Shown in pieces: positions 47,540 through 64,000 of a stretch of DNA of 64,000 nucleotides. The stretch spans positions 806,001 through 870,000 of the forward strand of contig NZ_JAMBOY010000001.1 of the NCBI RefSeq assembly GCF_023715885.1. The letters are read 5' to 3'. A model generated the notes under the pieces. That model made no database searches. It saw nothing but the letters and a program-made list of their open reading frames with translations, and was not told where the DNA came from. The DNA is from Microbacterium hydrocarbonoxydans (GTDB lineage: Bacteria; Actinomycetota; Actinomycetes; Actinomycetales; Microbacteriaceae). Numbering within the stretch: position 1 is the stretch's first letter; every line of letters begins with the position of its first letter. Position numbers and translations under genes: made by a program.

Positions 47540-48720
47540 GACGGATGCTCCTCGTGCGCGACGGCACCCGGCAGCACGCCACGATGCTCGGCCGTGCGAC
47601 GCCACCACGGTCCGTTCGCGGCCGCAACCGGCGCCGCGGGCGTGGGCGGCTGCAGCGGACCCACCTCGATGCCGACCGCGGGGAGCAGCTCGGTCACGTA
47701 GTCGGCGATGCCGAGTGACGCGGTCAGGCCCGTCGAGCGGATGGCCGCGACATTGATCAGGCGGGCATCCTTCTCCGACGACCCGAGCACGTAGTTGCTC
47801 CCACGGCCGGCAGGGCGGAGCCCCGCGTAGCTCGCGATCGGCTCGAGGCCCTCCAGCGCGGGGAACTGCGTGACGGCCTTGGCGAGGATCTCGTCCCGCG
47901 CCTCGGGGCGCACCGTCCAGTCGTCCTTGTCGTCGAGGTCGACCGCAGTGGGACCCGCGATCACCCTCCCGTCGAGCGTGGGGAAGACGAGCACGCCCTT
48001 CGTACGCTTCGTCGGCACCGGCAGGATGATGCGGTCGAGCGTCGCACCGTCCGGCAGCTCGAAGACGAAGAACTCGCCCTTGCGCGGATAGATCTCGAAC
48101 GAGTCGTCGCCGATCAGCCCGGCTACGTCGTCGGCGTGCAGGCCGGCGGCGTTGACGACCACGGCGGCGGCGAAGCTCCGGCCGTCCGTCGTCTCGACCA
48201 GGATCGCGTCCTCGCGCGGCGTGAGCGCGGAGACACGCGCGTCCAGCTCGACCCGTGCCCCGGCGGCCACCGCCGACGCCGCGAGCGCCGCCGTGAACGC
48301 GACGGGGTCGCTGACGGACTCGCCCGGTACGAGCAGGGCGCCGTCGGACTCGCGGATCTCGACCTCCACGCCGTTCGCGGCGGCGCCGGCAGCGAGTGCG
48401 GCCACCGTCTCGGCATCCTCGTCCGTGTGCGGCACGAGCTCGGCGCCGCAGTGGATGACGGGCACGCCCAGCGCGTTGAGGATCGCCGGACGGATTCGGG
48501 CGGCGCGCAGGATCAGCTCGGTCTCGAGCTCACCCGGGGTCGAGTCGAATCCGGTGTGCAGCACGCCGGAGTTCGTGCCGCTCGCCGCGAGACCCAGCGC
48601 GCCCTCGGCCTCGAGGAGCACGGCATCCACTCCGCGGTGCGCGAGCGTGTAGAGCAGGGCCGACCCCACGATTCCTCCGCCGATGACGACGACGGGGAGG
48701 GCGGGAGAGGGGGAGTTCAT
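47536..48720 (-). CDS. FAD-dependent oxidoreductase (GlpA/LhgO-like DAO family)
   Basis: 394 residues from ATG 48720. N-terminal Rossmann loop G-G-G-I-V-G-S-A near residue 14, then T-N-S-G-V-L-H near 50. It belongs to the DAO family of glycerol-3-phosphate and 2-hydroxyglutarate dehydrogenases. The RBS is weak. With the adjacent FGGY kinase it could oxidise a phosphorylated polyol, as in the glycerol and erythritol pathways. The true substrate is unknown. Confidence 0.82.
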   Translation of the reverse strand: MNSPSPALPVVVIGGGIVGSALLYTLAHRGVDAVLLEAEGALGLAASGTNSGVLHTGFDSTPGELETELILRAARIRPAILNALGVPVIHCGAELVPHTDEDAETVAALAAGAAANGVEVEIRESDGALLVPGESVSDPVAFTAALAASAVAAGARVELDARVSALTPREDAILVETTDGRSFAAAVVVNAAGLHADDVAGLIGDDSFEIYPRKGEFFVFELPDGATLDRIILPVPTKRTKGVLVFPTLDGRVIAGPTAVDLDDKDDWTVRPEARDEILAKAVTQFPALEGLEPIASYAGLRPAGRGSNYVLGSSEKDARLINVAAIRSTGLTASLGIADYVTELLPAVGIEVGPLQPPTPAAPVAAANGPWWRRTAEHRGVLPGAVAHEEHPS

Positions 48721-48761
48721 GATGGTTCCACTTTCGCTGATTTCTCTGGAGGAGGGGCGTC

Positions 48762-50255: not shown

Positions 50256-50289
50256 GACTCGACCTTCGTTCGACGGCGGTGGATACAAC

Positions 50290-50301
50290 TGGTCTATACC
50301 A
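50290..50301. promoter_or_regulatory. GntR/HutC-type operator
   Basis: TGGTCTATACCA, which contains the HutC-family GT-N-TA-N-AC signature (50292-50299). It lies between the divergent permease and GntR genes. Confidence 0.7.
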
Positions 50302-50334
50302 AGGCACGGTAGAGCGGGCACGAGTAGCGTGTCA

Positions 50335-51084
50335 ATGGTGGGCAGGCGAGAGACGGAAGAATTCACACGGGCGAAATCTGGCGAGCCCGCCTACGTGCGC
50401 ATCGCCGGGGAGCTGCGCAGCCGCATCGACGACGGTGAGCTCACGCCCGGCACGCCCCTGCCGGCGGAACGCGACCTGAGCGTCGAGCTCGGTGTGAGCC
50501 GCATGACGCTCCGCCGTGCACTGGGCGTGCTCGAGAACGAGGGCCGTGTGCACCGCGACGCGACGCGCGGCACCTTCGTGTCGGAACCCCGCGTGCGCTT
50601 GAGGCTCGGCTCGTTCTCGCAGGAGATCGCCCGCGCGGGCGGCAACCCGGGAGCCGAGCTCCTCTGGGCCGAGGAACGACCGGCCGACGAGACCGTCGCG
50701 GCCGGGCTCGGCATCCCTGCCGGCTCGCCCGTCTACGCGCTCCGGCGCGTGCGGCGCTCGAACGACGAGCCCCTCGCCGTCGAGACGACCTACTACCGCG
50801 CCGATCTCGTACCGGGCCTGCTCGACGGCGACCTCGCCGGGTCGCTGTGGGACGAGCTGCGCGCGCGGTTCGACCTCATCATCGCCCGCACCTCGGCGGA
50901 GCTCGAGGTGGTGGTGCTGGATGCCGACGACGCGCGTCGTCTCGGCACGCGTCGTGCCGCGGGCGGACTGCAGCTGACGCGGCGTACGTTCCTCGCGGCC
51001 GGTGACTGTTTCGAGTTCGCCGTCGACCTCTATCGCGCCGATCGGGTCTCGCTCATCATCGACCGGGCGGTCGACGCGGAGTGA
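50335..51084 (+). CDS. GntR/HutC family transcriptional regulator
   Basis: 249 residues. GntR winged helix at about 15-80 (L-P-A-E-R-D-L-S, then V-S-R-M-T-L-R-R-A-L) and a UTRA ligand-binding domain at about 95-240. ATG 50335 or GTG 50338 (TAGCGT ends 7 nt before the latter). It probably represses the divergent permease, oxidoreductase and kinase cassette. The stop overlaps the HAD gene by 4 nt. Confidence 0.9.
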   Translation: MVGRRETEEFTRAKSGEPAYVRIAGELRSRIDDGELTPGTPLPAERDLSVELGVSRMTLRRALGVLENEGRVHRDATRGTFVSEPRVRLRLGSFSQEIARAGGNPGAELLWAEERPADETVAAGLGIPAGSPVYALRRVRRSNDEPLAVETTYYRADLVPGLLDGDLAGSLWDELRARFDLIIARTSAELEVVVLDADDARRLGTRRAAGGLQLTRRTFLAAGDCFEFAVDLYRADRVSLIIDRAVDAE

Positions 51085-51722
51085 TCACGGTCTTCGACCT
51101 CGACGGGGTGCTCAGCCGCGCCGACACCATGGCCACGCTGGTGCTCGCGCGACTCCGCACGCGCCCCTGGCTCGTCCTGCCCGTCGCGGTGCTCGCGCTC
51201 GCCGCAGCGCTCGCGCCGGCGGCCGGGTCGCTGCGCCCCCGATGCAACCGCGCCGTCGTGCACGTCGTGCTCTCCGGGGTGACGGAGTCCGAATACACGC
51301 GGCTCGCCGTGCGGGTCGCGCAGCAGCTCGCCGCAAGGCCCGACAACGTGCGACCGGACGTGCTGGCGGCGCTGCGCAGCGCGGTCGCCGACGGCGTGGG
51401 CGTCGTGACCACCGCGACCGAGCTCGCCCTCGCAGAGGCGTACCTGGAGGCTCTCGGCGTCGGGGGGATGCCGCTGCTGGCCTCCCGCTTCCGCTACTCC
51501 ACCCGCGGTCCGCGCTTCGCCGACCACAACGTGGGCGAGCGCAAGGCCGAGACGCTCGAAGAGGCTCTTCCGGGCGCGAGCATCGATACGCTCTACACGG
51601 ATTCGTCGAGCGACCTGCCGCTCGCCCGACGGAGCGGACGGACGATGCTGGTCGATGCCCGACCCCGCTCGGCGAGGGAGTTCGCACGCCACAACGTCCC
51701 GTTCCGGCCGCTCCGCGGGTGA
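51081..51722 (+). CDS. HAD family phosphatase
   Basis: 213 residues. Motif I F-D-L-D-G-V-L at 5-11 and motif IV D-S-S-S-D near 175; the hydrophobic cap (about 25-55) could be a membrane segment. It resembles phosphoserine-phosphatase-like HAD proteins. It is coupled to the GntR gene by a 4-nt overlap, so it may dephosphorylate a product of the cassette. Confidence 0.8.
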   Translation: MITVFDLDGVLSRADTMATLVLARLRTRPWLVLPVAVLALAAALAPAAGSLRPRCNRAVVHVVLSGVTESEYTRLAVRVAQQLAARPDNVRPDVLAALRSAVADGVGVVTTATELALAEAYLEALGVGGMPLLASRFRYSTRGPRFADHNVGERKAETLEEALPGASIDTLYTDSSSDLPLARRSGRTMLVDARPRSAREFARHNVPFRPLRG

Positions 51723-51763: not shown

Positions 51764-51775
51764 GTATACGTATTC
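51764..51775. promoter_or_regulatory. Operator A, candidate LacI-type site
   Basis: GTATACGTATTC matches the inferred palindrome GCATACGTATGC at 10 of 12 positions. It lies 55 bp upstream of operator B, about five helical turns, which would allow looping. Confidence 0.6.
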
Positions 51776-51818
51776 AAATTACCGCCTTCGCTCAAACATA
51801 GGCTTCCCTAACTTGACT

Positions 51819-51833
51819 GCATACGTATACCAT
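51819..51833. promoter_or_regulatory. Operator B over the -10 box of the second sugar ABC operon
   Basis: GCATACGTATAC (51819-51830) matches the inferred operator at 11 of 12 positions. It overlaps TACCAT (51828-51833), a -10 box that ends 7 nt before the ATG, so a bound repressor would block transcription. Confidence 0.7.
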
Positions 51834-51840
51834 CAGCGAC

Positions 51841-53148
51841 ATGGGACACACACAGCACCGAGCACTGCCGGTACTCGCACTCGTCGCCGTGGGCATCGTC
51901 GCCCTCGCCGGCTGTGGCGCGGGTTCCCGCACCGACAATGAGAACTCGACGAAGGTGACGTGCGACTACACGGCACCCGAAGGCAAGACGACGGTCAACG
52001 TCCTCGCCTACAACTCCTCCGCGATCGACCCGTTCACCGACACGATGGTGTCGAGCTGCTCGACCGACGACGTGACGCTGAAGCACGACCCGATCGACTT
52101 CGGCGGCCAGGTGACGAAGACCACCGCGACCCTCGCGGGCGACACCGGCACCTACGACATCATCGAGACGTACGGCTTCGTGATCCCCGGGTTCGGCGAG
52201 GAGGAGAAGCTCGTCCCGCTGAACGATCTGTGGGACAAGTACGCCGACGACTACGGTCTCGACGACATCAGTCCCTCGATGGTCGAGGGAATGTCGTACG
52301 ACGGCGACATCTACGCGATCCCGATGCAGGCGCAGATGTTCGTCATGGCGTACCGTACCGACATCTTCGAGGACCTCGGCCTCGAGGTCCCGACGACGTT
52401 CGACGAGATGATCGACGCGGCCGAGGCGATCAAGGGCGCCGGCCTCATGGACTACCCGATCGCGCTGCCCTGGCTCGCCACGGCCGACGTCACCACCGGA
52501 TTCCAGGGCGCGATGAACTCCCTCGGCGCCGACTTCGTCACCGCCGACGGCGAGGTCACGCTCGACACCCCCGAGGCCAAGCAGGCTGTCGAGGCGATGC
52601 TCGCGCTCAAGCCGTACATGGATCCGCAGGTCACGACGTTCGATCAGCCCAAGGTTCAGCAGCAGATGTTCAACGGCACCGCGGCCATGTCGATCATGTT
52701 CTCCGGTCGCATGTTCGACCTGACGCTCGACTCGAACTCGAAGTTCGCGGATTCGATCGGCTTCGCCGGGGCGCCGAAGGTGACCTCCGACGCGGAGTAC
52801 TCGTACAACCGCCTCTCGATCGACGGCTGGTCGATCCCGTTCAACACCAAGCTCGACCACGACATGCTCTTCCAGATGATGGCCTCCGCCGTCAGCGAGG
52901 ACGCGTCGAAGGCATCCGTTCCCGCCGCCTACCCGGCGCGCGAGGGCATGGTGACGGAGAAGAACTCCCCGTACGGCGCAGCGGCGAACGACTCGATCGC
53001 CAGCGCCATGCCGCCCGTCGTGTCGCCGATCGCGGCCGACATCACCAACGAGATCCGGCCCATCCTGGTCTCGATCCTCAACGGCCAGATCGCGGTCGAC
53101 GAAGGACTCGCCCAGATGCAGGCCGCCGGCGAGAAGATCGCCGGCTGA
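51841..53148 (+). CDS. Substrate-binding lipoprotein of the LacI-linked ABC transporter
   Basis: 435 residues, lipobox L-A-G-C (Cys25). Family 1 solute-binding protein. No RBS is visible and TACCAT ends 7 nt before the ATG, so it is leaderless. It heads the operon with two permeases and a hydrolase. A strong hairpin follows the gene. As it groups with a HisD-family dehydrogenase rather than a glycosidase, the ligand may be a sugar acid, polyol or similar compound rather than an oligosaccharide. Confidence 0.88.
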   Translation: MGHTQHRALPVLALVAVGIVALAGCGAGSRTDNENSTKVTCDYTAPEGKTTVNVLAYNSSAIDPFTDTMVSSCSTDDVTLKHDPIDFGGQVTKTTATLAGDTGTYDIIETYGFVIPGFGEEEKLVPLNDLWDKYADDYGLDDISPSMVEGMSYDGDIYAIPMQAQMFVMAYRTDIFEDLGLEVPTTFDEMIDAAEAIKGAGLMDYPIALPWLATADVTTGFQGAMNSLGADFVTADGEVTLDTPEAKQAVEAMLALKPYMDPQVTTFDQPKVQQQMFNGTAAMSIMFSGRMFDLTLDSNSKFADSIGFAGAPKVTSDAEYSYNRLSIDGWSIPFNTKLDHDMLFQMMASAVSEDASKASVPAAYPAREGMVTEKNSPYGAAANDSIASAMPPVVSPIAADITNEIRPILVSILNGQIAVDEGLAQMQAAGEKIAG

Positions 53149-53166
53149 CCGACGCACCGACGTCAT

Positions 53167-53200
53167 GACTGTGGCCTGAGCGCGAGTTCAGGCCACAGTC
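53167..53200 (+). terminator. Hairpin between binding-protein and permease genes
   Basis: GACTGTGGCCTGA (53167-53179) pairs perfectly with 53188-53200 around an 8-nt loop. Because the operon continues, it probably acts as a partial terminator or mRNA stabiliser that raises binding-protein levels. Confidence 0.65.
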
Positions 53201-53219
53201 CGTCCAAGGGAGGACGCAT

Positions 53220-54092
53220 ATGAAGGCACGCGAGTTCTGGCTGCTCTTCTTCCCGAGCCTGCTGGTGATGGGGGCGCTTCTCGTGCTCCCTCTGGTGCGC
53301 ACGGTGCAGTGGAGCTTCGAGCAGGTCCGCTACGGCACACCGGGCACGTTCATCGGCCTGGAGAACTTCACAGACGCCCTGACCGACCCGCGCTTCCACA
53401 AGGCGGTCGTGTTCACGGTGGTGGTCACGGTCATCACCACCGCCATCCTGCTGGTCTTCGGCTACATCATCGCCACCGGCATCAACCGCATCACCACCTC
53501 GCGCCCCCTGGTGCTCGGCATCATGCTCGTCTCGTACGTGCTGCCGAACCTCGTGGGCGCTGTCGCGTTCTCGTGGCTCTTCGACGACAACTTCGGCGGC
53601 GTCGTGAACCGCCTCATCGGATTCTTCGGCGGCACGCAGGTGCTGTGGTTCACCGACCAGGTTCCCAACGCGATCCTCGTCATCGCGAACACGGTCTGGC
53701 ACATGCTGCCCTTCGCGATGCTCATCATCCTCGCAGGGCTGCAGGGCGTGCCGAACGAACTGAAGGAAGCGGCCAAGATCGACGGAGCCAACGCGTTCCA
53801 GACGCACATCAGCGTGATCATCCCGACGATCCGCGGCGTGCTCGGGTTCGTGACCCTGATCACGATCATGGACGTGCTGCGCATGTTCGACAACCTGATC
53901 CCGCTGTCGCCGCAGGCGCAGAACATCGGCAACGAGTCGATCATGCTCTACGTCTACTCCGTGGCGTTCGCCGACGGCGCCGAGAACCTCGGCCTCGGCA
54001 GCGCGATCAACGTGCTCACCATCCTCCTGATCCTCATCATGCTGATCCCGTTCATCCGGGGCATCTTCAAGGAAGCGAAGGCCGAACGATGA
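53220..54092 (+). CDS. ABC transporter permease 1 of the LacI-linked system
   Basis: 290 residues, six predicted membrane segments, EAA loop E-A-A-K-I-D-G-A near residue 185. ATG 53220 with an AAGGGAGG RBS. The stop overlaps the next permease by 4 nt. Carbohydrate-uptake family 1 (MalF type). No ATPase is encoded nearby. Confidence 0.9.
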   Translation: MKAREFWLLFFPSLLVMGALLVLPLVRTVQWSFEQVRYGTPGTFIGLENFTDALTDPRFHKAVVFTVVVTVITTAILLVFGYIIATGINRITTSRPLVLGIMLVSYVLPNLVGAVAFSWLFDDNFGGVVNRLIGFFGGTQVLWFTDQVPNAILVIANTVWHMLPFAMLIILAGLQGVPNELKEAAKIDGANAFQTHISVIIPTIRGVLGFVTLITIMDVLRMFDNLIPLSPQAQNIGNESIMLYVYSVAFADGAENLGLGSAINVLTILLILIMLIPFIRGIFKEAKAER

Positions 54093-54985
54093 GTCTCACC
54101 GCCAACGAGCTCTCGACGAGAGCCATCGTCACCCGCGGCGCACCGAAGCGCCGCCGTCGCGGCGGGCCCAACCGCCCACCCGTCATCACGGGGCTGCTGC
54201 TGGGCATCCTCTGCGTGGTCGTGCTGAGCCCGTTCATCTGGATGACGCTGTCGGTCACCAAGCCGACCGACGTCGCGTTCTCGAACCCGCCCGTGCTCTG
54301 GGACTACCAGCCCACGCTGCAGGCCTTCGTCGACCTCTGGGAGACGACCTACTTCGCCGATTACCTCGTCAACACCCTCGTCGTCGCGGTCGTCTCCACC
54401 GTGATCGCGCTCGTGATCGGCATCCCTGCGGCCTATGCGCTGTCGCGGTTCCCCAGCTACGTCTCGGCGATCCTGCTCGTGCTGGCCCTGATCTTCCGGG
54501 CACTGCCGCGGTTCTCCGTCGTGCTGCCGATGTACGACATCAGCCGTGCGCTCGGGATCTACGACACGACCTTCGCGCTCGCGATCGCCCTCGTCGCCAT
54601 CAACCAGCCGTTCACGATCTGGCTGCTGCGCAACTTCTTCGCCGAGATCCCGCGGGAGCTCGACGAGGCGGCGATGATCGACGGCTGCACGCGGATCGGG
54701 ATGCTGCGACGCGTCATGATCCCGCTGATGGGGCCCGGCATCCTCACCGCCGGCATCTTCGTCTTCCTGTTCGCGTTCCAGGAGTACCTCACGGCGCTCG
54801 TGCTCACCGACACCTCGTCGAAGACGGTGCCGGTGTTCATCGCGACGCAGCTCGGGCAGACCCTACCGATGCTGCAACAGGCGGGCGCCGCGTCGATGCT
54901 GCTGACGATCCCCGTGTTCGTGATCGCGTTCATCGCTCAGAAGTACCTCGTCGCCGGCCTCAGCGACGGCGCCGTCAAGGGCTGA
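54089..54985 (+). CDS. ABC transporter permease 2 of the LacI-linked system
   Basis: 298 residues, six predicted membrane segments, EAA loop D-E-A-A-M-I-D-G-C near 195, ending in G-A-V-K-G. Overlaps the first permease by 4 nt and is followed at 1 nt by the hydrolase. Confidence 0.9.
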   Translation: MSLTANELSTRAIVTRGAPKRRRRGGPNRPPVITGLLLGILCVVVLSPFIWMTLSVTKPTDVAFSNPPVLWDYQPTLQAFVDLWETTYFADYLVNTLVVAVVSTVIALVIGIPAAYALSRFPSYVSAILLVLALIFRALPRFSVVLPMYDISRALGIYDTTFALAIALVAINQPFTIWLLRNFFAEIPRELDEAAMIDGCTRIGMLRRVMIPLMGPGILTAGIFVFLFAFQEYLTALVLTDTSSKTVPVFIATQLGQTLPMLQQAGAASMLLTIPVFVIAFIAQKYLVAGLSDGAVKG

Positions 54986-54986
54986 C

Positions 54987-55712
54987 GTGTCGGCATCCGC
55001 CCCGAAGCTGGTGCTGCTCGCCGGCATGAACTGCACGGCAGACCTGTGGGCGGAGGCCGGCTTCGACACGGAGGACGGAGGGGCGATCCAGCCGCAGCTG
55101 GATCGTCCCTCGCTCCGCACGCAGGTCGACTCGCTGCTCGCGGAGATGCCGGCGCAGTCGGTGATCGTCGGGCACTCGCTCGGCGGCATCGTCGGCATGG
55201 CGCTCGCCCTCGCCGCTCCGCACCGCGTCGCCGGGCTGTGCCTGGTGTCGACGAACGCCAAGGCGCCCACGGATGCGCAGCGAGGCGGATGGAGGAACTG
55301 GCTGGCCGCTCTCGATGCGGGCGCGAGCGCGCGGGCCCTGCAGCAGAGCATCCTCGAGCCGTTGCTCGGCGGGCGCCTGGCCGCCGAACGCCCCGACCTG
55401 GTCGAGCGCGCTCTGCGGATGGGTGACGAGACGGGCGACGACCTGCTGCGCAGGCAGCTCCAGCTGCAGCTGACGAGGGTCGATCTGCTGTCCCGCCTGT
55501 CGTCGCTGCGGATGCCGACTCTCGTCGTCTCCGGACTCGACGACGTGATCTGCCCGCCGCACTTCCACACCGAGATCGTCACCGAGATCGACGGCGCCCG
55601 CCTGGTGTCGCTCGACGCCGGTCACCTGCTGCCGCTCGAGCGCCCGCGCGAGTTCGGCGACCTGGTGCGCTCGTGGTGCGCGCAGCGGGTTCGGCCGGCC
55701 GCCGTGGCATGA
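54987..55712 (+). CDS. Alpha/beta hydrolase of the LacI-linked operon
   Basis: 241 residues from GTG 54987. Nucleophile elbow G-H-S-L-G-G near residue 62, a catalytic Asp near 190 and a His in D-A-G-H-L-L near 212. Directly after the permeases, so it probably hydrolyses an ester or lactone of the imported compound. The exact reaction is unknown. Confidence 0.85.
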   Translation: MSASAPKLVLLAGMNCTADLWAEAGFDTEDGGAIQPQLDRPSLRTQVDSLLAEMPAQSVIVGHSLGGIVGMALALAAPHRVAGLCLVSTNAKAPTDAQRGGWRNWLAALDAGASARALQQSILEPLLGGRLAAERPDLVERALRMGDETGDDLLRRQLQLQLTRVDLLSRLSSLRMPTLVVSGLDDVICPPHFHTEIVTEIDGARLVSLDAGHLLPLERPREFGDLVRSWCAQRVRPAAVA

Positions 55713-55729
55713 CCGGCGTCGCGCGCACT

Positions 55730-55796
55730 GCAGGAGATCACACGCAACGAAGGACGGATGCCGCGGCGGCGTCCTTCGTTGCGCGAGATCTCCTGC
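55730..55796. repeat. Intergenic palindrome, family shared with 30.4 kb
   Basis: A long imperfect hairpin: GCAGGAGATC (55730-55739) with its complement at 55785-55796, and GCAACGAAGGAC with GTCCTTCGTTGC inside. The core GGATGCCGC and left arm match the element at 30412-30472. It probably terminates the converging hydrolase and aldolase operons. Confidence 0.7.
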
Positions 55797-55802
55797 GGAA
55801 GC

Positions 55803-56546
55803 TCAGCGGGTCGGCGCCGCCAGATCGCGGAGGTGCGCCATGAGCGACGACGCGAGGTTGTAGACCACGAGGTCGGCACCGCCCGCGAAGGCCGCCGCCG
55901 CGGCATCCCTCGTGCCCACGATGTCCATCCGCAGGGCACCGGTGCGCGCGAGCGCCTCGTTGACGACCGCGACGGCTTGCGCCACCGGGAGATCGTCGGA
56001 CCCGGATGCCGCGGCGAGGTCGGCCGGGCCGATCATGATGCCGTCGAGGCGCGGTGTCGCGACTATGGCCTCGACGTTCGCGACGCCGCGCGGGGATTCG
56101 ATCATGCCGAGCACGAGGGTGTTCTCGAGCCACCAGTCGCGGTGATCGGCCGCCGCGACCTCGCCGAACCGGCCGGCACGGCTGTAGGTGGCGAATCCGC
56201 GCGATCCGACGGGCGGGTAGAGCGCGGAATCGACGAGGTCGGCGGCATCCGCGGCGGTGTCGAGGTGGGGGGCGAGGATCCCCTGCGCGCCCTGATCGAG
56301 CACCCGCAGCACGAGGCCGCGGTCCTTCTCGCCGACGCGCACGATGACGGGCACGCCGTGCACGGCCGCCAGGGCGATGTGAGTGCGCAGTGCGACGATG
56401 TCGGCCGGGCCGTGCTCGCAGTCGATCAGCACGAAGTCGAAGCCGGCGACGGCCAGCATCTCGACGGTCTCCTCGGCAGGCATGCGCAGCAGAGCGCCGA
56501 AGAGCTTCTCACCGGCGCTCGCGCGCTGCCGCAGCGAAGGACTCAT
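55803..56546 (-). CDS. HpcH/HpaI family aldolase
   Basis: 247 residues from ATG 56546. The metal and substrate residues of class II pyruvate aldolases are visible: D-C-E-H-G-P near residue 43, M-I-E-S near 144 and I-G-P-A-D-L near 172. It probably splits a 2-keto-3-deoxy-type acid to pyruvate and an aldehyde. It overlaps the SDR stop by 4 nt and is last in the HisD-SDR-aldolase operon. Confidence 0.88.
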   Translation of the reverse strand: MSPSLRQRASAGEKLFGALLRMPAEETVEMLAVAGFDFVLIDCEHGPADIVALRTHIALAAVHGVPVIVRVGEKDRGLVLRVLDQGAQGILAPHLDTAADAADLVDSALYPPVGSRGFATYSRAGRFGEVAAADHRDWWLENTLVLGMIESPRGVANVEAIVATPRLDGIMIGPADLAAASGSDDLPVAQAVAVVNEALARTGALRMDIVGTRDAAAAAFAGGADLVVYNLASSLMAHLRDLAAPTR

Positions 56547-57301
56547 GCGACCATTCCCGCCGAGAGGTCGACGTCGGCGCCGCACATGCCGGGCATCCCG
56601 AGCATCGCGACGACGGCCGCGCCGACCTCCTCCTCGGTCACCATGCGTCCCAGCGCCGCCCGCGAGACGAACGCCTGCTCTGCGTCGTCGACGGATGTGC
56701 CCGACCGCTCAGCCTCGAGGCGGAAGTTGCGGGCCATGCGCGGGCCCTGCACCGGCCCGGGGGAGAGGGTGTTGACGCGCACGCCGGCCGGTCCGACCTC
56801 GAACGCGAGGGTCGAGGTGAGCCCGATGACTGCCATCTTCGAGGCGCAGTAGGGCGTGCGGTGCGCGAGCGGGCGCTTGCCCGAGACGGATGCCACGTTG
56901 ATGACGTCGCCGTCGCCCCGCTCGACCATGCCCGGCAGCAGCGCCTTGCACAGCAGGAAGGTGCCGCGCACGTTGACGTTGAAGACCTCGTCCCAGTCGT
57001 CGACGTCGATGTCGGTGAGCGCCGCCACCGGACCGGGGATGCCGGCGTTGTTGACGAGGATCGACACCTCGGTGCCGGAGAGAGCGTCGCGCAGTGCGTC
57101 GACGGACGCCGGGTCCGCGACGTCGCACGCGAGCGCTCGGACGCGGTCGCCGAGCTGTCCGGCCACCGCATCGAGCTTCGCCGTGTCGCGACCCACCACG
57201 ACCACCGCGGCACCGGCGGCGTGCAGGGCTCGGGCGATCGCCGCTCCGAGTCCGCTCCCGCCGCCGGTGACCACGGCCGTGCGACCGGTGAGGTCGGTCA
57301 T
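56543..57301 (-). CDS. SDR family oxidoreductase
   Basis: 252 residues from ATG 57301. Cofactor loop T-G-G-G-S-G-L-G near residue 12, N-N-A-G near 85, and catalytic Y-C-A-S-K near 150. Classical SDR length. Coupled to the HisD-like and aldolase genes by 4-nt overlaps at both ends. Probably oxidises a hydroxyl of the same pathway intermediate. Confidence 0.9.
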   Translation of the reverse strand: MTDLTGRTAVVTGGGSGLGAAIARALHAAGAAVVVVGRDTAKLDAVAGQLGDRVRALACDVADPASVDALRDALSGTEVSILVNNAGIPGPVAALTDIDVDDWDEVFNVNVRGTFLLCKALLPGMVERGDGDVINVASVSGKRPLAHRTPYCASKMAVIGLTSTLAFEVGPAGVRVNTLSPGPVQGPRMARNFRLEAERSGTSVDDAEQAFVSRAALGRMVTEEEVGAAVVAMLGMPGMCGADVDLSAGMVA

Positions 57302-58629
57302 CGTGCGACCGCGTCGACCGCGGCGTGGCTCTCGTCGATCCAGTCGAACCGAGTGCCGGCGTGACGCCACGCGCGCGCATCGCCCGAGCGGGCGTGTCCC
57401 TCGAACAGCTCGACGCGGGCGGCGCGGCCGCAGACGGCGCCGAGCTCCGCGGAGGACTCGGTGTTCTGAACCTCCTGGTACGTCACCGTGCGGAGGTACT
57501 TGCCCACCCAGAGCCCGCCCGTGTAGCGGGCCGCGCCGAGCGTCGGGAGCACGTGGTTCGTGCCGATCACCTTGTCGCCGTATGAGACGCAGGTGTTCTC
57601 CCCGAGGAACAGCGCGCCGTAGTCGTGCATCTTCGTCAGTGCCTCGCGCGGGTTCTCGGTGAAGATCTGCACGTGCTCGAAGGCGAAGTCGTCGGCGATG
57701 CGGTACGCCTCGTCGAGATCGTCGGCGACGATCACCTGACCCCAGTCGCGCCACGCGGGACCGGCGTAGTCGCGCGTCGACATGCCGGGGAGGATCTTCT
57801 CGATCCAGTCGATGACCTCCTCGCCGAGCTTCCGAGAGGTCGTCACCAGCACGGCGGGGGAGTCGGGGCCATGCTCGGCCTGTGACAGCAGATCCACGGC
57901 GGTGAAGAAGGGGTCGGCGTGCTCGTCGGCGACGATGAGGATCTCGGTGGGGCCGGCGAAGAGGTCGATGCCGACCTCGCCGAACAGCTGGCGCTTGGCC
58001 TCGGCGACGTAGGCGTTGCCGGGTCCGGCGATCATGTTGACCGGCGCGATCGTATCCGTGCCGACAGCCATCGCCGCGACCGCCTGCACGCCGCCGAGGA
58101 TGTAGATCTCGTCGGCGCCCGCCATCTTCATCGCCGCGACCGTCGCGGCGGGGATCTCGCCGCGGATGGGCGGGGTGCAGGCGACCACGCGGGGCACGCC
58201 GGCCACCTTGGCGGTGATGATCGTCATGTGGGCCGAGGCGGTGAGCGGATACTTGCCGCCCGGGATGTAGGCGCCGGCGGCCTGCACCGGCACGTGCTTC
58301 TGGCCGAGGAAGACACCGGGGAGCGTCTCGACCTCGACGTCGACGAGCGAGTCGCGCTGCGCCTGAGCGAACCGGCGCACCTGGCTCTGCACGAACTCGA
58401 TGTCCTGGATGACCTGCTCCGGCAGAGTGGCGATGATCTCGTCGATCTGGGCGTCGGAGAGTCGGTACGACTCGGGGCTCCACTTGTCGAACTGCTCGGC
58501 ATAGCGGCGGACCGCGACGTCGCCGTTCTCGCGGATGTCCCCGATGATCCCCCGGACCCGTTCGGCGACGTCCTGCTGAGCGGTGTCCGCGAACGTCTTC
58601 GTCGGCGCGGACTTCAGATGCAGGGGCAT
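57298..58629 (-). CDS. Histidinol dehydrogenase family oxidoreductase (catabolic paralogue)
   Basis: 443 residues from ATG 58629, with a GGATGG RBS. The HisD zinc and catalytic residues appear conserved: Q-A-E-H near 250, F-E-H near 318, G-D-K-x-I-G-T-N-H-V-L-P-T near 355 and G-H-A-R near 415. It is not in a his operon but in an operon with an SDR and an aldolase, so it probably oxidises a polyol or sulfonate-like alcohol, as HpsN-type paralogues do. A perfect operator palindrome lies upstream. Confidence 0.85.
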   Translation of the reverse strand: MPLHLKSAPTKTFADTAQQDVAERVRGIIGDIRENGDVAVRRYAEQFDKWSPESYRLSDAQIDEIIATLPEQVIQDIEFVQSQVRRFAQAQRDSLVDVEVETLPGVFLGQKHVPVQAAGAYIPGGKYPLTASAHMTIITAKVAGVPRVVACTPPIRGEIPAATVAAMKMAGADEIYILGGVQAVAAMAVGTDTIAPVNMIAGPGNAYVAEAKRQLFGEVGIDLFAGPTEILIVADEHADPFFTAVDLLSQAEHGPDSPAVLVTTSRKLGEEVIDWIEKILPGMSTRDYAGPAWRDWGQVIVADDLDEAYRIADDFAFEHVQIFTENPREALTKMHDYGALFLGENTCVSYGDKVIGTNHVLPTLGAARYTGGLWVGKYLRTVTYQEVQNTESSAELGAVCGRAARVELFEGHARSGDARAWRHAGTRFDWIDESHAAVDAVAR

Positions 58630-58645
58630 GGCCCATCCTTTCGTT

Positions 58646-58657
58646 GCATACGTATGC
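58646..58657. promoter_or_regulatory. Operator C, perfect palindrome GCATACGTATGC
   Basis: 12-bp perfect palindrome between the -10 box of the HisD operon promoter and its RBS. On the minus strand, TTGACG (58686-58691) and CATAAT (58662-58667) with an 18-nt spacer make the promoter. A half-site (58672-58678) lies in the spacer. Confidence 0.75.
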
Positions 58658-58661
58658 TCCG

Positions 58662-58691
58662 ATTATGACCGCGTATGCATTCGAGCGTCAA
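58662..58691 (-). promoter_or_regulatory. Promoter of the HisD-SDR-aldolase operon
   Basis: TTGACG -35 at 58686-58691 and CATAAT -10 at 58662-58667 on the minus strand, spacer 18 nt. Operator C lies immediately downstream. Confidence 0.6.
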
Positions 58692-58729
58692 GGGCAGTAG
58701 AATTCGACAGATCGAGGGGGAGGCCTGAC

Positions 58730-59731
58730 ATGGTCGTCACGAGCCGGGATGTTGCCCGCTTGGCCGGGGTGTCGCAGCCCACGGTGTCGCGGGCCCTGCG
58801 CGACGACGCGCGGGTGTCGGAGGCCACCAAGCTCCGGGTGCGGGAAGCGGCGCAGCTGCTCGGATACGTGCCCAGCGAGGCCGGCCGGGCGCTCTCCTCC
58901 GGGCGCACGCGCCGCATCGGGTTGCTGCTCACCGATCTCGACAACCAGTTCTACTCGCACATCATCGCCCCGGTGCACCGCGAGCTCGAAGCCCTCGGCT
59001 ACCAGTTGATGCTGCACACCGAGACCGCCGACAACGACACGATCGTCGAGCGGCTCCTCGCCAACGGCCTCGACGGAGTCATCCTGGCCACCACGACCGT
59101 CGACTCCGTCGCCCCCGTACGGCTGCGCGATCGCGGGCTGCCTTTCGTGTACTTCAACCGCACGGGGTCCTTCGTCGACGCGGACTCTGCGGTCGTGAAC
59201 TCCGTGCCGGGCTATCGCGAGGCCGTCCGCGCGGCCGTCGCCCTCGGGCATCGGCGGATGGGCGCGGTGCTCGGGCCGAGCAACACCAGTACGGCGCAGG
59301 GGCGGGAGGCGTCGCTCCGAGACGCCCTGAGCGCCGAGGGGCTGCAGCTCGACGAGCGTGACGTGCGCCGCACCCCGTACGGCGCGGCCGAGGGCGAGGC
59401 GGCCGCGGCCGAGCTGCTCGCCGGACCCGACCGCCCCTCAGTGCTCTTCTGCGGCAACGACGTCGTCGCGTACGGCGCGCTCAACGCCGCTCATCGCGCC
59501 GGGCTGCGCGTGCCCGACGATCTCTCCATCATCGGCTTCGACGACCTTCCTGAGGCGGCGTGGCCCATCATCGACCTCGCTACGGTCGGCTACGACATCG
59601 TCGGCATGGCGCGCGCTGCGGCCGACCTCATCGTCCGGCGCATCGAGGAACCGGATGCCGAGATCCGGATGTCCGGGTTCGCGTCGACCTTCATCGCGCG
59701 CCGCACGCTGGCACCCGCTCCCGCGCGCTGA
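58730..59731 (+). CDS. LacI family transcriptional regulator
   Basis: 333 residues from ATG 58730 (GGGGGAGG RBS). The N-terminal helix-turn-helix D-V-A-R-L-A-G-V-S-Q-P-T-V-S-R-A-L is textbook LacI, followed by the periplasmic-binding-fold ligand domain and C-terminal G-F-D-D. It lies between the two operons and next to operator C; the same palindrome occurs at the transporter operon and the SnoaL/bicupin operon. It probably represses all three until an inducer binds. Confidence 0.92.
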   Translation: MVVTSRDVARLAGVSQPTVSRALRDDARVSEATKLRVREAAQLLGYVPSEAGRALSSGRTRRIGLLLTDLDNQFYSHIIAPVHRELEALGYQLMLHTETADNDTIVERLLANGLDGVILATTTVDSVAPVRLRDRGLPFVYFNRTGSFVDADSAVVNSVPGYREAVRAAVALGHRRMGAVLGPSNTSTAQGREASLRDALSAEGLQLDERDVRRTPYGAAEGEAAAAELLAGPDRPSVLFCGNDVVAYGALNAAHRAGLRVPDDLSIIGFDDLPEAAWPIIDLATVGYDIVGMARAAADLIVRRIEEPDAEIRMSGFASTFIARRTLAPAPAR

Positions 59732-59858
59732 CCCCGCGGGCATCTTCGCTCCTGCGCCGCCGGGCCCCGGCGTCCGAGCGGGCACCGGCACCCGCGTCCG
59801 TTCCCGCCCCGGATCCGCCGTTCTCGAAGAATGTCCACCGTGTGCGCTGGCGGACTGC

Positions 59859-59887
59859 TTGCGCCGCGTTGTGCATACGCATACACT
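59859..59887 (+). promoter_or_regulatory. Promoter and operator D of the SnoaL/bicupin operon
   Basis: TTGCGC (59859-59864), 17-nt spacer, TACACT (59882-59887). The operator-like GCATACGCATAC (59873-59884; 10 of 12 positions) overlaps the spacer and -10 box. Confidence 0.6.
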
Positions 59888-59951
59888 GACGATCACGCGA
59901 CGTGCGATCACCGATGAACCGCAGTCGTGCATCTCGAAGGAGTGGAAAAGC

Positions 59952-60932
59952 GTGTCTCTCGACCCGGTCGCCTACCTGCCGTACAAAGACCCCGACGACT
60001 TCATCCGCGAGGTCACCGACCTCATCTGGGTCGATCGGTCGATCAGTTTCATCCGCGACAACTACGAGCCGGACTCGATCGTGCACGGCGCGCTCGGCAC
60101 CTCCACGACGCGACAGGAGGTCATCGAGGGCTCGCTCATGCGGATCTCGGCGACGCCGGACCGCACAGGTCAGGCGGAGGATGTCATCTGGGAGGCACGC
60201 GGTGACGACGCCTTCCTCAGCTCCCACCTGGTGCTCTCAGGCGATCTGCACTCGCCGTACGTGAGCCGCACGATCGCGAACTGCCTCTACCGCCGTGGCC
60301 GCATGGTCGAGGAGTGGGTCGTGCGCGACACGCTCGCCGGCGCGCTGCGTCGCGGTGACGACCTCGACGAGCTGGCGCGGGCGCAGGCGTTCCGCGGCTT
60401 CTCCGGCTCGTGGACCGAGCCCGCCCCGGCCGACCCGATCGCGAAGGGCGACTCGGGCGTCCGCCCCGACGAGTACCGCGCCGAGGTCGAGACCGTCCTC
60501 GACATGATCCAGACCGTCTGGAACGACCGCGATCTGCAGAAGGTCGAGAAGTACTTCGATCGCGACCTCACGCTGCACACGGTCGGCGACCGCACCATCA
60601 TCCGCCCCGAGGGGTACCGCCGGGCGCTGCTGCGCCTGCTCGAGTCGTTCCCGGGCGGACAGTTCGAGATCCGCGACATCCAGACCAATTACGACGTGCG
60701 CTACGCGGGCCTCCGCGTCGCGGTCGTGTGGAAGTTCGTCGGCGACTACAACGGCGTGCCGAACTACGGTCCGCTGACCGGCAAGCCGGTCGACCTGATC
60801 GGCATCTCGCAGTTCACCTTCCACAACGGCGCCATCGTCAAGGAGGTGCGCCTGTGGGACGACATCGCGCTCCGCGCGCAGATCGCAGGGTCACGGGGCG
60901 ACGAGCCGGTGCCCTTCGCCAACATCTACTGA
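59952..60932 (+). CDS. Double SnoaL/NTF2-like domain protein
   Basis: 326 residues from GTG 59952 (AAGGAG about 11 nt upstream). Two SnoaL-like (NTF2-fold) domains: about 10-145 and 165-320, the second with D-x-x-x-V-E-K-Y-F and G-x-x-x-V-K-E-V-R-L-W. Such folds form small enzymes or binding pockets, including isomerases and polyketide cyclases. No catalytic assignment. It is under a LacI-type operator and precedes the bicupin. Confidence 0.75.
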   Translation: MSLDPVAYLPYKDPDDFIREVTDLIWVDRSISFIRDNYEPDSIVHGALGTSTTRQEVIEGSLMRISATPDRTGQAEDVIWEARGDDAFLSSHLVLSGDLHSPYVSRTIANCLYRRGRMVEEWVVRDTLAGALRRGDDLDELARAQAFRGFSGSWTEPAPADPIAKGDSGVRPDEYRAEVETVLDMIQTVWNDRDLQKVEKYFDRDLTLHTVGDRTIIRPEGYRRALLRLLESFPGGQFEIRDIQTNYDVRYAGLRVAVVWKFVGDYNGVPNYGPLTGKPVDLIGISQFTFHNGAIVKEVRLWDDIALRAQIAGSRGDEPVPFANIY

Positions 60933-60963
60933 TCATTCACTGATCGACAAGGGAGAAGAAGAA

Positions 60964-62133
60964 ATGAGTACCGTCATCGAGGGCACGACGGACGTCGTCG
61001 TCGACACCGAGGAGATCCAGCGCCGGACCATCCGTCGTTCGGACTGGGTGCCGTGCAACTCGGCGTTCATCGACTGCCGCACCCCGGGGTCCGACCGCAA
61101 GGAGAACTACTCCTTCATCGGCGCCGGCGTCTCGCAGAACGCCAGCCAGTACGTGAACCTCGAGGTCAACCACGGGTTCAACACGGGAGCCGCAGGCATG
61201 CCGAACGGCATCTCGAACAACCTGCACCTGCACTTCACCGCCGAGGTCTTCATCAACCTCGGCGGCGAGTTCCGGCTGCGCTGGGGCGTCGACGGCAAGC
61301 AGGGCGAGTACATCAGCCACGACGGCGACATCGTCACGATCCCCACGTGGATCTTCCGCGGCTTCACGAACGAGGGACCGGATGACGGCATCCTGTACAC
61401 GGTGCTCGGTCGCGACGACAACGGGGGCATCATCTGGGGTCCGTCGGTGCTGCGCGAGGCCGAGTCCTACGGTCTGCACCTCACCGCCGACAACAAGCTG
61501 ATCGACACGGTCGCGGGCGACGTCCTGCCCGACGACGTGGCGCTCATCAAGCCGATGAAGCAGCACTACATCGATGAGCTCACCGAGTACTCGGTCGAGG
61601 ACATGCGCTCGCGGGTCATCCAGCCCGGCGACCGCAGGTACTCCGCCGCGGCGCTGCTGTGCGCGGCGGTCGACGGAGGCCGCGTCGAGCTCGCCACCGC
61701 GATCGGCTACGGCATGAGCGAGAACCGTCGCCAGGTGCCGAACGTGCACGAGCCCCACTCGTTCAACCTCGCCTGGGTCAAGGCCGAGCCGGGTCAGGGT
61801 GTGCTGCGCCACCGGCACGACAAGACGCAGGCGCTGCTGTTCAAGACCGGCCGCTGGGAGGTCACCCTCAACGGCGACCCGGCGACGACCGTGAACCTCG
61901 GAGCCGGCGACACCTTCTCGGTCCCCGAGGGTGCGTGGCGGGAGTACCGCTGCGTCGAGGGCGACGAGACCGGCTCCGGCACGGTGCTCGTCATCAACGG
62001 CGGCGACGACCGTGTGTACCTCGAATGGGCCCCCGAGGTGGTCGAGGCCGCAGCCGCCGCCGACTGGACGATCGACCCCAACGGCTACCTCGCGCCGCTC
62101 GGCGTGATGGTCACGGCCACGGAAGACGACTGA
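60964..62133 (+). CDS. Bicupin domain protein
   Basis: 389 residues. The first cupin has metal ligands H-L-H-F-T-A-E near residue 89-95, with Arg in place of the usual His in motif 2. The second has H-R-H-D-K-T-Q near 283-289. It may be a dioxygenase, isomerase or binding protein of the LacI-linked pathway. Good GGGAG RBS, 31 nt after the SnoaL-like gene, followed by a terminator. Confidence 0.78.
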   Translation: MSTVIEGTTDVVVDTEEIQRRTIRRSDWVPCNSAFIDCRTPGSDRKENYSFIGAGVSQNASQYVNLEVNHGFNTGAAGMPNGISNNLHLHFTAEVFINLGGEFRLRWGVDGKQGEYISHDGDIVTIPTWIFRGFTNEGPDDGILYTVLGRDDNGGIIWGPSVLREAESYGLHLTADNKLIDTVAGDVLPDDVALIKPMKQHYIDELTEYSVEDMRSRVIQPGDRRYSAAALLCAAVDGGRVELATAIGYGMSENRRQVPNVHEPHSFNLAWVKAEPGQGVLRHRHDKTQALLFKTGRWEVTLNGDPATTVNLGAGDTFSVPEGAWREYRCVEGDETGSGTVLVINGGDDRVYLEWAPEVVEAAAAADWTIDPNGYLAPLGVMVTATEDD

Positions 62134-62147
62134 GTCGCGACGCCTTC

Positions 62148-62187
62148 AGACGGGGCGCGAGGAGCTGCGACTCCTCGCGCCCCGTCT
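62148..62187 (+). terminator. Terminator of the SnoaL/bicupin operon
   Basis: A perfect 17-bp stem (62148-62164 with 62171-62187), 6-nt loop. Confidence 0.85.
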
Positions 62188-62197
62188 CGTGTGCGGG

Positions 62198-63124
62198 TCA
62201 CCGCAGCGGCGTGCGCCCCGCGTGCTCGGGGAGGGCCTCGCTCAGCATCCGCTCGGCGAGCTCGGCGAGCTTGCGCGTCGCCGGCGACAGCAGCACGCCC
62301 TCGCGCTGCACGAGCGCGATCGTGTCGTGCATCGGCTCGGCGAACGGGAAGGTGCGGATGCCAGGGGGGAATCCCTCGGACTCGGCGATCGACCTCGAGA
62401 CGATGGTGTCTGCGGTGCCCGCGGCGACGAGGCTCAGTGCGGTCTCGACGTGCTCGACCTCGACCGACGGCTCGATCGTGAGACCCTGCAGGCGGGCGCG
62501 CTCCAGCAGCTGCCTGCGCGTCGGATCGTCCCATCCGGCGAAGGCGTCGTAGAGCACGAGCTTCGCCTCGGCGACCTCCGAGATCGTCACCGGCCCTCTG
62601 CCGGCCGGGCGGGTGGAGGAGACGTAGAGCACCTCGTCGCGGAACAGCGGCTTGACCTCGAGGCCGTCCTCATCGATCGGCAGCACGAGCAGACCCGCCT
62701 CGAGCTCGCCCCGCGCGATGGACCGCGCGACGTGAGCCGAGTTGATGCCCACCAGTCGCAGCCGGACATTCGGATGCCGATGGTGGAACGTCTCCGCCAG
62801 GTCGGCCAGCGCGTAGTACGCCGCGTTGCGCAGCACCCCGAAGGTGCAGATGCCGCGGTCGAGCGACGCCAGAGAGTGGATCGTGTCGATGCCGTTCTGC
62901 ACGGCGCTCACGGCCTGGGCGGCGTGCGGGCGCAACTCCTGCGCGGCGGCTGTCGGCACGAGGCGACGACTGCCGCGGACGAAGAGCGTGGCGTCGAGCT
63001 CGCGCTCGAGGCGGGCGACGAGCTCCGAGACGGAGGCCTGCGTCATGCCCAGGCTCGCTGCGGCCGCGGTGAACGAGCCGTGTTCGAGGGCGGCGAGGAA
63101 GGCGGTGAGCTGGGTGATGGTCAC
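62198..63124 (-). CDS. LysR family transcriptional regulator
   Basis: 308 residues from GTG 63124 (TACCAT on the minus strand ends 6 nt upstream; leaderless). N-terminal winged helix with T-Q-A-S-V-S-E-L-V-A-R-L-E; C-terminal effector-binding domain. It is divergent from the second HisD-family gene and probably activates it. Confidence 0.9.
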   Translation of the reverse strand: MTITQLTAFLAALEHGSFTAAAASLGMTQASVSELVARLERELDATLFVRGSRRLVPTAAAQELRPHAAQAVSAVQNGIDTIHSLASLDRGICTFGVLRNAAYYALADLAETFHHRHPNVRLRLVGINSAHVARSIARGELEAGLLVLPIDEDGLEVKPLFRDEVLYVSSTRPAGRGPVTISEVAEAKLVLYDAFAGWDDPTRRQLLERARLQGLTIEPSVEVEHVETALSLVAAGTADTIVSRSIAESEGFPPGIRTFPFAEPMHDTIALVQREGVLLSPATRKLAELAERMLSEALPEHAGRTPLR

Positions 63125-63201: not shown

Positions 63202-64000
63202 ATGCGTTACTCTCCTGCAGTCCTCGCGCGCCACGAGGGCGCCTTCCATCACCTCAAGACCCCTGGCGTCGACGCCCCGGCCGCGCAGCGCGACCCCGCC
63301 GTGATCGAGACCGTCACGACGATGCTCGCCGACATCCGCGAGCGCGGCATGGACGCCGTGCTCGACTACGCGAGGAAGCTCGACAACTACCAGGGCGCCG
63401 CCATCGAGCTCACGCCCGAGCAGATCGCGAGCAGTGGCGAGCGACTCGATCCCGCCCTGCGCGAGGCGATCGAGCTCGGGGCTGAGCGCACGCAGGCCTT
63501 CGCCCGCGAGCAGCGCTCGCACCTCTCCGACTTCGAGACCGAGCTGGTGCCCGGTCTCGTGACCGGGGCGAAGTACATCCCGGTCTCCCGTGTCGGCGCC
63601 TATCTGCCCGCCGGCCGCTTCCCCCTCACCGCGAGCGCGTTCATGACCGTGGGCGTAGCGAAGGCCGCCGGCGTGCCGACCGTGATCGCCTGCACGCCCC
63701 CGCAGCCCGACGGCGGAGCCAACGACGCCGTGGTGTACGCCGCGCATCTCTCCGGCGTCGACCGCGTGTTCGTCATCGGCGGGGTGCAGGCGCTCGCCGC
63801 CATGGCGTACGGCCTGCTGGGCGAGCTGCCCGTCGACATGCTGGTCGGCGCGGGCAACGCCTTCGTCGCCGAGGCCAAGCGTCAGCTCTTCGGCACGGTC
63901 GCGATCGACCTCCTCGCGGGCCCGAGCGAGGTCGCTGTCATCTCCGACGAGACGGCCGATCCCGAACTCGTCGCCGCCGATCTGCTCGGCCAGGCCGAGC
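63202..64000 (+). CDS. Second histidinol dehydrogenase family gene (3' partial)
   Basis: The frame runs through the right edge; about 266 codons are present. I-P-V-S-R-V-G-A-Y-L-P-A-G near residue 122, G-A-G-N-A-F-V near 215 and L-L-A-G-P-S-E-V near 237 are HisD-family segments. The visible part ends in the Q-A-E segment, before the catalytic region. TTGTCG (63167-63172) and TAACCT (63190-63195) with a 17-nt spacer make a promoter; the ATG follows 6 nt later (leaderless). It is a separate paralogue of the 58 kb gene, divergent from a LysR regulator. Confidence 0.85.
   Translation, partial: MRYSPAVLARHEGAFHHLKTPGVDAPAAQRDPAVIETVTTMLADIRERGMDAVLDYARKLDNYQGAAIELTPEQIASSGERLDPALREAIELGAERTQAFAREQRSHLSDFETELVPGLVTGAKYIPVSRVGAYLPAGRFPLTASAFMTVGVAKAAGVPTVIACTPPQPDGGANDAVVYAAHLSGVDRVFVIGGVQALAAMAYGLLGELPVDMLVGAGNAFVAEAKRQLFGTVAIDLLAGPSEVAVISDETADPELVAADLLGQAE

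Follow-up and report, generated by a model that had tools for sequence, protein, structure and literature searches.

A predicted LacI regulon for import and degradation of a polyhydroxylated compound in Microbacterium hydrocarbonoxydans and related clusters of other phyla

In the hps cluster of Cupriavidus pinatubonensis, which serves the degradation of 2,3-dihydroxypropane-1-sulfonate (DHPS), a LacI-family gene adjoins the genes of a HisD-family dehydrogenase (HpsN), a short-chain dehydrogenase/reductase (SDR) and an MFS transporter. PMC11382572 gives the motif G-R-Y-A/S-H for HpsN and G-S-A-P-L for the histidinol dehydrogenase HisD. A cluster that shares the LacI, HisD-family and SDR genes lies near the end of the window, a 64,000-nucleotide stretch of Microbacterium hydrocarbonoxydans DNA placed on contig 11 of a 3.48-Mb genome, and for both clusters a four-electron oxidation of a primary alcohol is expected. 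Its closest named relative, among the best 80 of 134 loci compared, is that of Microbacterium sp. SZ1 (L030), with a bicupin 99% identical. We consider it probable that one LacI regulator, acting at a TGCATACGTATGCA-type operator, governs an import-and-degradation regulon, and that this regulon serves a polyhydroxylated compound, which would be oxidised by the dehydrogenase HisD1 and the SDR and then split by pyruvate-aldol cleavage.

The operator palindrome and its distribution

In the cluster, a single lacI gene is surrounded by three transcription units (Table 1). A solute-binding protein (SBP), two permeases and an alpha/beta hydrolase are encoded on the plus strand; HisD1, the SDR and an HpcH aldolase follow on the minus strand, then LacI on the plus strand, and finally SnoaL and the bicupin, also on the plus strand. 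Order and strands agree with the first-pass annotation of the window, which had also placed the palindrome GCATACGTATGC or a near match at four positions. All four copies are present, with 2, 1, 0 and 2 mismatches from left to right. The cluster is larger than the extent given there (51764-62133): a LysR gene and a second HisD-family gene (HisD2), which border it, were overlooked, as were two strong hairpins. The whole genome contains one site without mismatch and one with a single mismatch, and both lie within the cluster.

Conservation of the operator was followed in 80 loci encoding bicupin relatives (the best 80 of 134; 1.58 Mb in total), with 60 palindromes made by shuffling the letters of the half-site as control. 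The reversed palindrome is unfit as a control for these loci (101 sites, 6 exact), as its half-sites are common to the real one. The loci contain 21 exact sites, or 112 sites if one mismatch is allowed. The control means are 0.05 and 2.1 and no control reached either count; because many of the loci are close relatives, these counts are not independent. With up to two mismatches allowed, 229 of 246 sites are in promoter position (exact, 21 of 21; one mismatch, 84 of 91; two mismatches, 124 of 134). A site precedes lacI in 74 of the 76 loci that bear the gene, the exceptions being L063 and L084. It also precedes the SnoaL gene in 51 loci, HisD1 in 40, the SBP and bicupin genes in 35 each, an MHS transporter gene in 17 and HisD2 in 3. 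Operators are thus found before transporter genes of both the CUT1 and the MHS type. In the window, the LacI operator was not found in the LysR/HisD2 intergenic region. The LacI proteins that have a site range in identity from 98% down to 49%.

The operator type extends to other phyla: in alpha- and gammaproteobacteria, Deinococcus and Bacillota, the counterparts of these genes are preceded by exact or near copies. Exact sites are carried by named plasmids of Deinococcus (two), Sinorhizobium medicae (one) and Phaeobacter piscinae (two; this stretch has the SnoaL, importer and LacI part only). Pantoea, Priestia and Geobacillus show near copies, and Ensifer, Klebsiella michiganensis, K. aerogenes and Novosphingobium share the variant TGCATTCGAATGCA. 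Across 18 plasmid stretches there are five exact sites (control mean 0.03, maximum 1 of 60) and 14 with at most one mismatch (control mean 0.53, maximum 3 in 60). In K. aerogenes and Geobacillus a LacI gene stands beside a HisD1-like gene, classed by identity and outside the tree described below, with the same type of operator. The comparison supports one regulator, one operator type and one conserved gene set in several phyla, and we infer that the three were inherited or transferred jointly. The single LacI regulon proposed at first pass is strongly supported by this phylogenetic footprinting, and LacI is predicted to bind the sites.

Conserved gene set and HisD-family enzymes

By tblastn, the bicupin, which served as search bait, is present in all 80 loci, the hydrolase in 77, the aldolase and LacI in 76 each, the SDR in 73, SnoaL and HisD1 in 67 each, HisD2 in 64, LysR in 56 and a nitrilase in 54. 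Part of the loci are short contigs, and transporters were counted in the 66 loci of at least 19 kb: CUT1 is found in 32, MHS in 23, both in 1 and neither in 12, so the two types are almost mutually exclusive. The MHS symporter occurs in other Actinomycetota, and MFS or TRAP transporters outside this phylum. The bicupin family has a patchy distribution; a strong match is found in 4 of 199 genomes of the taxonomic family (own genome included; six further weak cupin matches were discounted) and, at E 1e-30, in 3 of 296 genomes of the phylum, again with its own. LysR and HisD2 accompany the cluster in many relatives. The nitrilase gene lies between bicupin and LysR in many Microbacterium relatives (for example L032, 11238-12047). 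In the window this gap is 64 bases (62134-62197), and the nitrilase is therefore absent from its usual place (the rest of the genome was not searched); L031 and L061 are also without it there. L048, from a record titled Planococcus sp. APC 4015, is a 21-kb locus of 70% G+C with a Microbacterium-type cluster and a bicupin of 77% identity; the record may carry a wrong organism label or derive from a contaminated assembly.

Outside Actinomycetota, named plasmids from Pantoea, Klebsiella, Priestia, Deinococcus, Novosphingobium, Martelella, Ruegeria and Roseibium carry most of this set, some genes being missing or replaced. The core of bicupin, hydrolase and pyruvate aldolase is combined with HisD and SDR in the first five of these genera; Rhizorhabdus wittichii has it with SDR but lacks HisD. 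In Ensifer, Vibrio and Thioclava it is combined with OtnK and OtnC, again with no HisD; OtnI or a relative is also present in Vibrio and Thioclava. Ensifer OtnK (456 against an NCBIfam cut-off of 350) and Vibrio OtnI (339 against 325) pass, and Ensifer OtnC is slightly below (241 against 250). In Roseomonas the core (L122) lies at the end of a circular record, with a HisD1-like match and SnoaL at the record start. Many clusters contain a second group with a further HisD, SnoaL proteins and an amidase or carbon-nitrogen hydrolase.

Both HisD proteins of the cluster are nearer to HpsN than to histidinol dehydrogenase structures (HisD1, 366 versus 259 bits; HisD2, 382 versus 265 bits). At the position of HpsN GRYA/SH, HisD1 has GKYPL and HisD2 GRFPL. 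We aligned 145 HisD sequences from loci L030-L134 and the window. The motif is G[KR][YF]P[LMI] in 142; the other three are the references, C. pinatubonensis HpsN (GRYAH), Salmonella HisD (GSAPL) and Listeria HisD (GTAAY). The sulfonate-binding His126 of HpsN is absent from all 142 non-reference sequences, HisD2 included. The zinc and catalytic residues Gln, His, Glu-His, Asp and His are retained, five positions in 145 of 145 and the last His in 144 (one gap). A tree of 33 of these sequences, one HpsN included, places the HisD1 proteins of Actinomycetota, Proteobacteria, Deinococcus and Metabacillus in one clade (support 100) that excludes HpsN. Actinobacterial HisD2 joins HpsN (98, long branches), and proteobacterial HisD2 forms a third group. 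The cluster points to a third HisD-family class, G[KR][YF]P[LMI], beside the histidinol and DHPS dehydrogenases. The Metabacillus HisD1-clade gene is next to a permease annotated as GntP family. The K. aerogenes permease that adjoins LacI and HisD (L136, 10391-11800), annotated as a D-beta-hydroxybutyrate permease, was also considered as GntP-type and rejected, having no Pfam or NCBIfam match at E 0.001. In L135, L137 and L139 (K84, Emticicia and Blastomonas) a HisD1-like gene adjoins genes for alpha/beta hydrolases, FAD monooxygenases, fumarylacetoacetate-hydrolase-family proteins and ring cleavage.

These data bear on a sulfonate such as DHPS, which the first-pass annotation had listed as a possible substrate. 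The bit scores and the grouping of actinobacterial HisD2 with HpsN are in its favour, as is the LacI-HisD-SDR-MFS layout of Klebsiella, which mirrors LacI-hpsN-hpsO-MFS of Cupriavidus. The missing His126, the HisD1 clade without HpsN and the different palindrome of the LacI gene beside hpsN (TGAAAGCGCTTTCA) speak against it; in the genome, Xsc gives eight matches with none above the cut-off (SuyAB and CuyA were not searched). We regard a sulfonate as extremely improbable. Histidinol or another amino-alcohol as the main substrate, with HisD1 and HisD2 acting as true histidinol dehydrogenases, is very unlikely. It would account for the catalytic residues in common and for the amide hydrolases and amino-acid permease close to HisD2 in relatives. 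Neither protein has the GSAPL motif of the biosynthetic enzyme or neighbours from a his operon, and a third, separate HisD is encoded on contig 24, with a motif (GKAVYP) resembling GKAAYP of the solved HisD 4gic; CUT1, aldolase and LacI would also be ill-suited to histidine metabolism.

Several observations weigh against one regulon with one conserved route. With up to two mismatches, the genome contains 33 sites as compared to 45 for the backward pattern, and thus no excess. Twenty-nine two-mismatch sites lie outside the cluster; among 12 inspected, with genes predicted by a crude gene caller, nine are intragenic, one is only upstream of a predicted gene and two are neither. In the window, the 22 sites with up to three mismatches (14.9 +/- 3.7 in shuffles, reached in 3 of 100) are a weak excess. 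The plasmid stretches have 42 sites with up to two mismatches, inside the control range (maximum 43); 34 of these stand at genes, a biased figure as the coding-sequence starts were picked by hand with the sites known. At this level L117, L121 and L122 have no operator and L118 has none at a promoter. HisD1-like genes (56-59% identical) are present in the aromatic-degradation-looking clusters L135, L137 and L139, and HisD1 alone would therefore not define the substrate. HisD1 is undetected in 13 of the 80 loci (10 of the 66 of at least 19 kb) and so appears dispensable. L089, L096 and L099 have a minimal set in which transporter, hydrolase, bicupin and aldolase are accompanied by neither HisD nor SDR, and the order of steps may differ accordingly. 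The actinobacterial L099 encodes a kinase with both DUF1537-type Pfam domains (no NCBIfam match above cut-off); in L089 and L096 neither HisD nor Otn genes were seen. The lack of genome-wide enrichment at up to two mismatches would suit a chance motif or the site of another regulator. With the site 5' of lacI in nearly all lacI-bearing loci, exact and one-mismatch counts far over the 60 shuffled controls, and the palindrome accompanying related LacI genes in other phyla, we find that explanation highly improbable and retain the single LacI regulon.

Table 1. Positions of operators, genes and hairpins of the cluster in the window
Feature	Position	Strand	Remarks
Operator copy GTATACGTATTC	51764-51775		2 mismatches; 5' of SBP gene; same place in many Microbacterium relatives
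Operator copy GCATACGTATAC	51819-51830		1 mismatch; immediately before SBP start
SBP of CUT1-type ABC importer	51841-53148	+	PF01547
Hairpin between SBP and permease 1	53167-53200	+	Uninterrupted 15-pair stem, -30.3 kcal/mol, z -5.8
ABC permease 1	53220-54092	+	PF00528
ABC permease 2	54089-54985	+	PF00528
Alpha/beta hydrolase	54987-55712	+	Weak likeness to 3-oxoadipate enol-lactonase
Long, very strong hairpin	about 55730-55796		z -6.1; convergent hydrolase and aldolase genes on either side
HpcH/HpaI aldolase family	55803-56546	-	PF03328, 103.1 bits against cut-off 25
SDR dehydrogenase	56543-57301	-	Family match
HisD1, histidinol-dehydrogenase-family enzyme	57298-58629	-	Motif GKYPL
Operator, exact GCATACGTATGC	58646-58657		0 mismatches; divergent HisD1/LacI promoter region
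LacI-family regulator	58730-59731	+	PF00356 and PF13377 above cut-off (HTH and periplasmic-binding-like effector domain)
Operator copy GCATACGCATAC	59873-59884		2 mismatches; 5' of SnoaL gene
SnoaL/NTF2-like protein, 326 aa	59952-60932	+	GTG at 59952 used as start; Pfam SnoaL in C-terminal half
Bicupin, no curated family name	60964-62133	+	Cupin_2; N-terminal cupin conserved, H88, H90, E94, R132
LysR-family regulator	62198-63124	-	Pfam; accompanies cluster in many relatives; no LacI operator at promoter
HisD2, second HisD-family enzyme	63202-64000, leaves window	+	Motif GRFPL; complete in L016 (7203-8519)

The binding protein and two permeases of the CUT1 importer are present by profile matches, and no ATPase gene for it is found among the genes of 51764-62133; in actinobacteria an ATPase shared in trans is known. 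Hairpins are frequent after the binding-protein genes of ABC importers, and the one after SBP perhaps has a role in the SBP:permease ratio. The hairpin between the hydrolase and aldolase genes is likely a bidirectional terminator. Between the HisD1 and LacI genes, not far from the operator without mismatch, a partial palindrome-like stretch, CGTATGCAT (58672-58680), is possibly an auxiliary half-site. Just upstream (47536-51722, read by eye) are genes for an FAD-dependent oxidoreductase, a permease, a GntR-type regulator and a HAD-like protein, a separate system outside the cluster. A query with this HAD protein was matched in 2 of the 80 loci, whose flanks extend little past SBP.

Predicted pathway and substrate

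The cluster most likely encodes a peripheral pathway in which a hydroxymethyl or diol end is oxidised and a pyruvate-type aldol is cleaved, in some relatives by RraA. LacI would most likely be a repressor acting at the three promoter regions, with the substrate or an early intermediate causing its release. The CUT1 importer would take up a small polyhydroxylated compound. HisD1 would convert a terminal -CH2OH next to a hydroxyl into a carboxylate (four electrons, two NAD+), and the SDR a secondary hydroxyl into a ketone, the two together yielding a 2-oxo-4-hydroxy acid for the HpcH or RraA aldolase. The alpha/beta hydrolase is predicted to act by opening a lactone, an ester or a diketone; the cupin and SnoaL would rearrange the skeleton or open it. 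Cleavage by the HpcH aldolase would then give a carbonyl fragment together with pyruvate or a closely related 2-oxo acid. The LysR side module, with HisD2 and, in relatives, an amide or nitrile hydrolase, probably feeds in amide- or amino-alcohol-bearing forms. The stepwise oxidation and cleavage envisaged at first pass is backed by the gene content, and by the five alphaproteobacterial loci (Ruegeria, Roseibium, Marinovum, Martelella and S. medicae) in which RraA is present and HpcH undetected. The individual steps are predictions. In the relatives with OtnK and OtnC, with or without OtnI, the carbonyl fragment may be 2- or 3-oxo-tetronate; this variant suggests a C4 oxo-acid sugar as the product released beside pyruvate.

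The bicupin appears to represent a cupin family with an unusual metal-site pattern. It has no close sequence in the PDB (best E 0.079), and the curated families give the Cupin_2 domain only. Across 19 bicupin sequences, the most distant of 27% identity, only the N-terminal half is conserved, and H88, H90, E94 and R132 are invariant. The Priestia and Deinococcus proteins have no C-terminal cupin. The structural model (pLDDT 80.5; weak stretches include 53-70 and 88-92) shows a two-cupin fold and is that of a generic bicupin, for which reason its active-site geometry is unreliable. A reaction was sought from structure matches and no single one was indicated, generic bicupins dominating. The best Foldseek matches are quercetin dioxygenases, with oxalate decarboxylase and salicylate 1,2-dioxygenase also high. 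These matches could indicate ring cleavage. The bicupin, as a quercetinase- or salicylate-dioxygenase-like oxygenase, would then open the ring of a cyclic enediol or aromatic-like compound, the breakdown would be completed by the hydrolase and aldolase, and the dehydrogenases would trim the side chains. The hydrolase with HpcH or RraA does resemble the endings of meta-cleavage routes, the RraA member is weakly like LigK, and HisD1-like genes are found in the aromatic-type clusters. Many unrelated bicupins, seed globulins among them, score equally (Z about 19-20), and Arg132 is invariant in 19 of 19 rows at the place which is usually that of the third His of cupin oxygenases. Import by CUT1 and control by LacI also fit sugars better. 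We therefore judge ring cleavage to be possible but unlikely, and oxidation and aldol cleavage of a polyhydroxylated compound is preferred.

Assignment of the SnoaL protein is at the family level only. The NTF2-family enzymes LdpA and PcfL remove a carbon as formaldehyde, according to PMC12997858, and the SnoaL proteins may follow this model.

As to the sugar acid or polyol also listed at first pass, the otnK, otnC and otnI genes of relatives, the TRAP transporters and the GntP-annotated permease beside the Metabacillus HisD1-clade gene tentatively favour a polyhydroxy acid. Ascorbate cleavage, isosaccharinate, pantothenate, kojic acid and aminocyclitols were also considered and set aside, as the chemistry of each covers only part of the gene set. 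A mycosporine- or gadusol-type sunscreen, or another C7 cyclitol with a hydroxymethyl on a tertiary carbinol, is a more specific and doubtful candidate, proposed on a chemical argument only. HisD1 would oxidise the ring hydroxymethyl, and the cupin and hydrolase would open the ring. RraA or HpcH acting on the tertiary alcohol could then give pyruvate and oxaloacetate or 3-oxo-tetronate. The HisD2 and amidase or nitrilase of relatives would treat amino-alcohol and amide side chains (glutaminol, glutamine). Two roseobacter core operons contain a MetE-like gene of the cobalamin-independent methionine synthase II family (L112, 14171-15295; L120, 13042-14163), perhaps for a demethylation step; with a mycosporine its product would act on the O-methyl group. 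Such a substrate, if true, would explain the odd gene mixture and the strain sources (leaf, soil, algae).

Significance and comparison with known systems

The cluster appears to represent a widespread, undescribed degradation pathway, in which regulator and operator type co-occur in several phyla; because of this co-occurrence, the operator is useful for finding the pathway and defining its members. Among the CC-licensed papers listed in searches, no description of the gene set was found, and the word 'histidinol' does not occur in the available parts of PMC12607616 or PMC12997858. Naming the substrate would correct many annotations as 'histidinol dehydrogenase', 'ester cyclase' and 'cupin', and would show which compound warrants such machinery in leaf, soil and marine bacteria.

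The window differs from the hps cluster by the lack of the HpsN histidine, by its operator palindrome and, at the level of the genome, by the lack of an Xsc above the cut-off, and it has an additional hydrolase, aldolase, cupin and SnoaL. With quercetinase, oxalate decarboxylase and salicylate dioxygenase the window's bicupin shares the two-cupin fold. It differs from them in having no notable PDB sequence match, in the conservation of the N-terminal half alone and in the Arg at the third-His place. The OtnK/OtnC/OtnI pathway of 3-oxo-tetronate (C4 acid sugars) has its genes inside the related clusters of Ensifer, Vibrio and Thioclava, whereas the genome of the window is without a DUF1537-type kinase (PF07005) and the cluster has HisD1 and the SDR instead. 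The aldolase is far under every equivalog cut-off that it matched (best, HpaI, 124.8 against 368.8 bits) and in this differs from the described HpcH/HpaI and RraA pyruvate aldolases of 4-hydroxy-2-oxo acid pathways, with which the clusters have in common the family and the apparent replacement of one aldolase type by the other.

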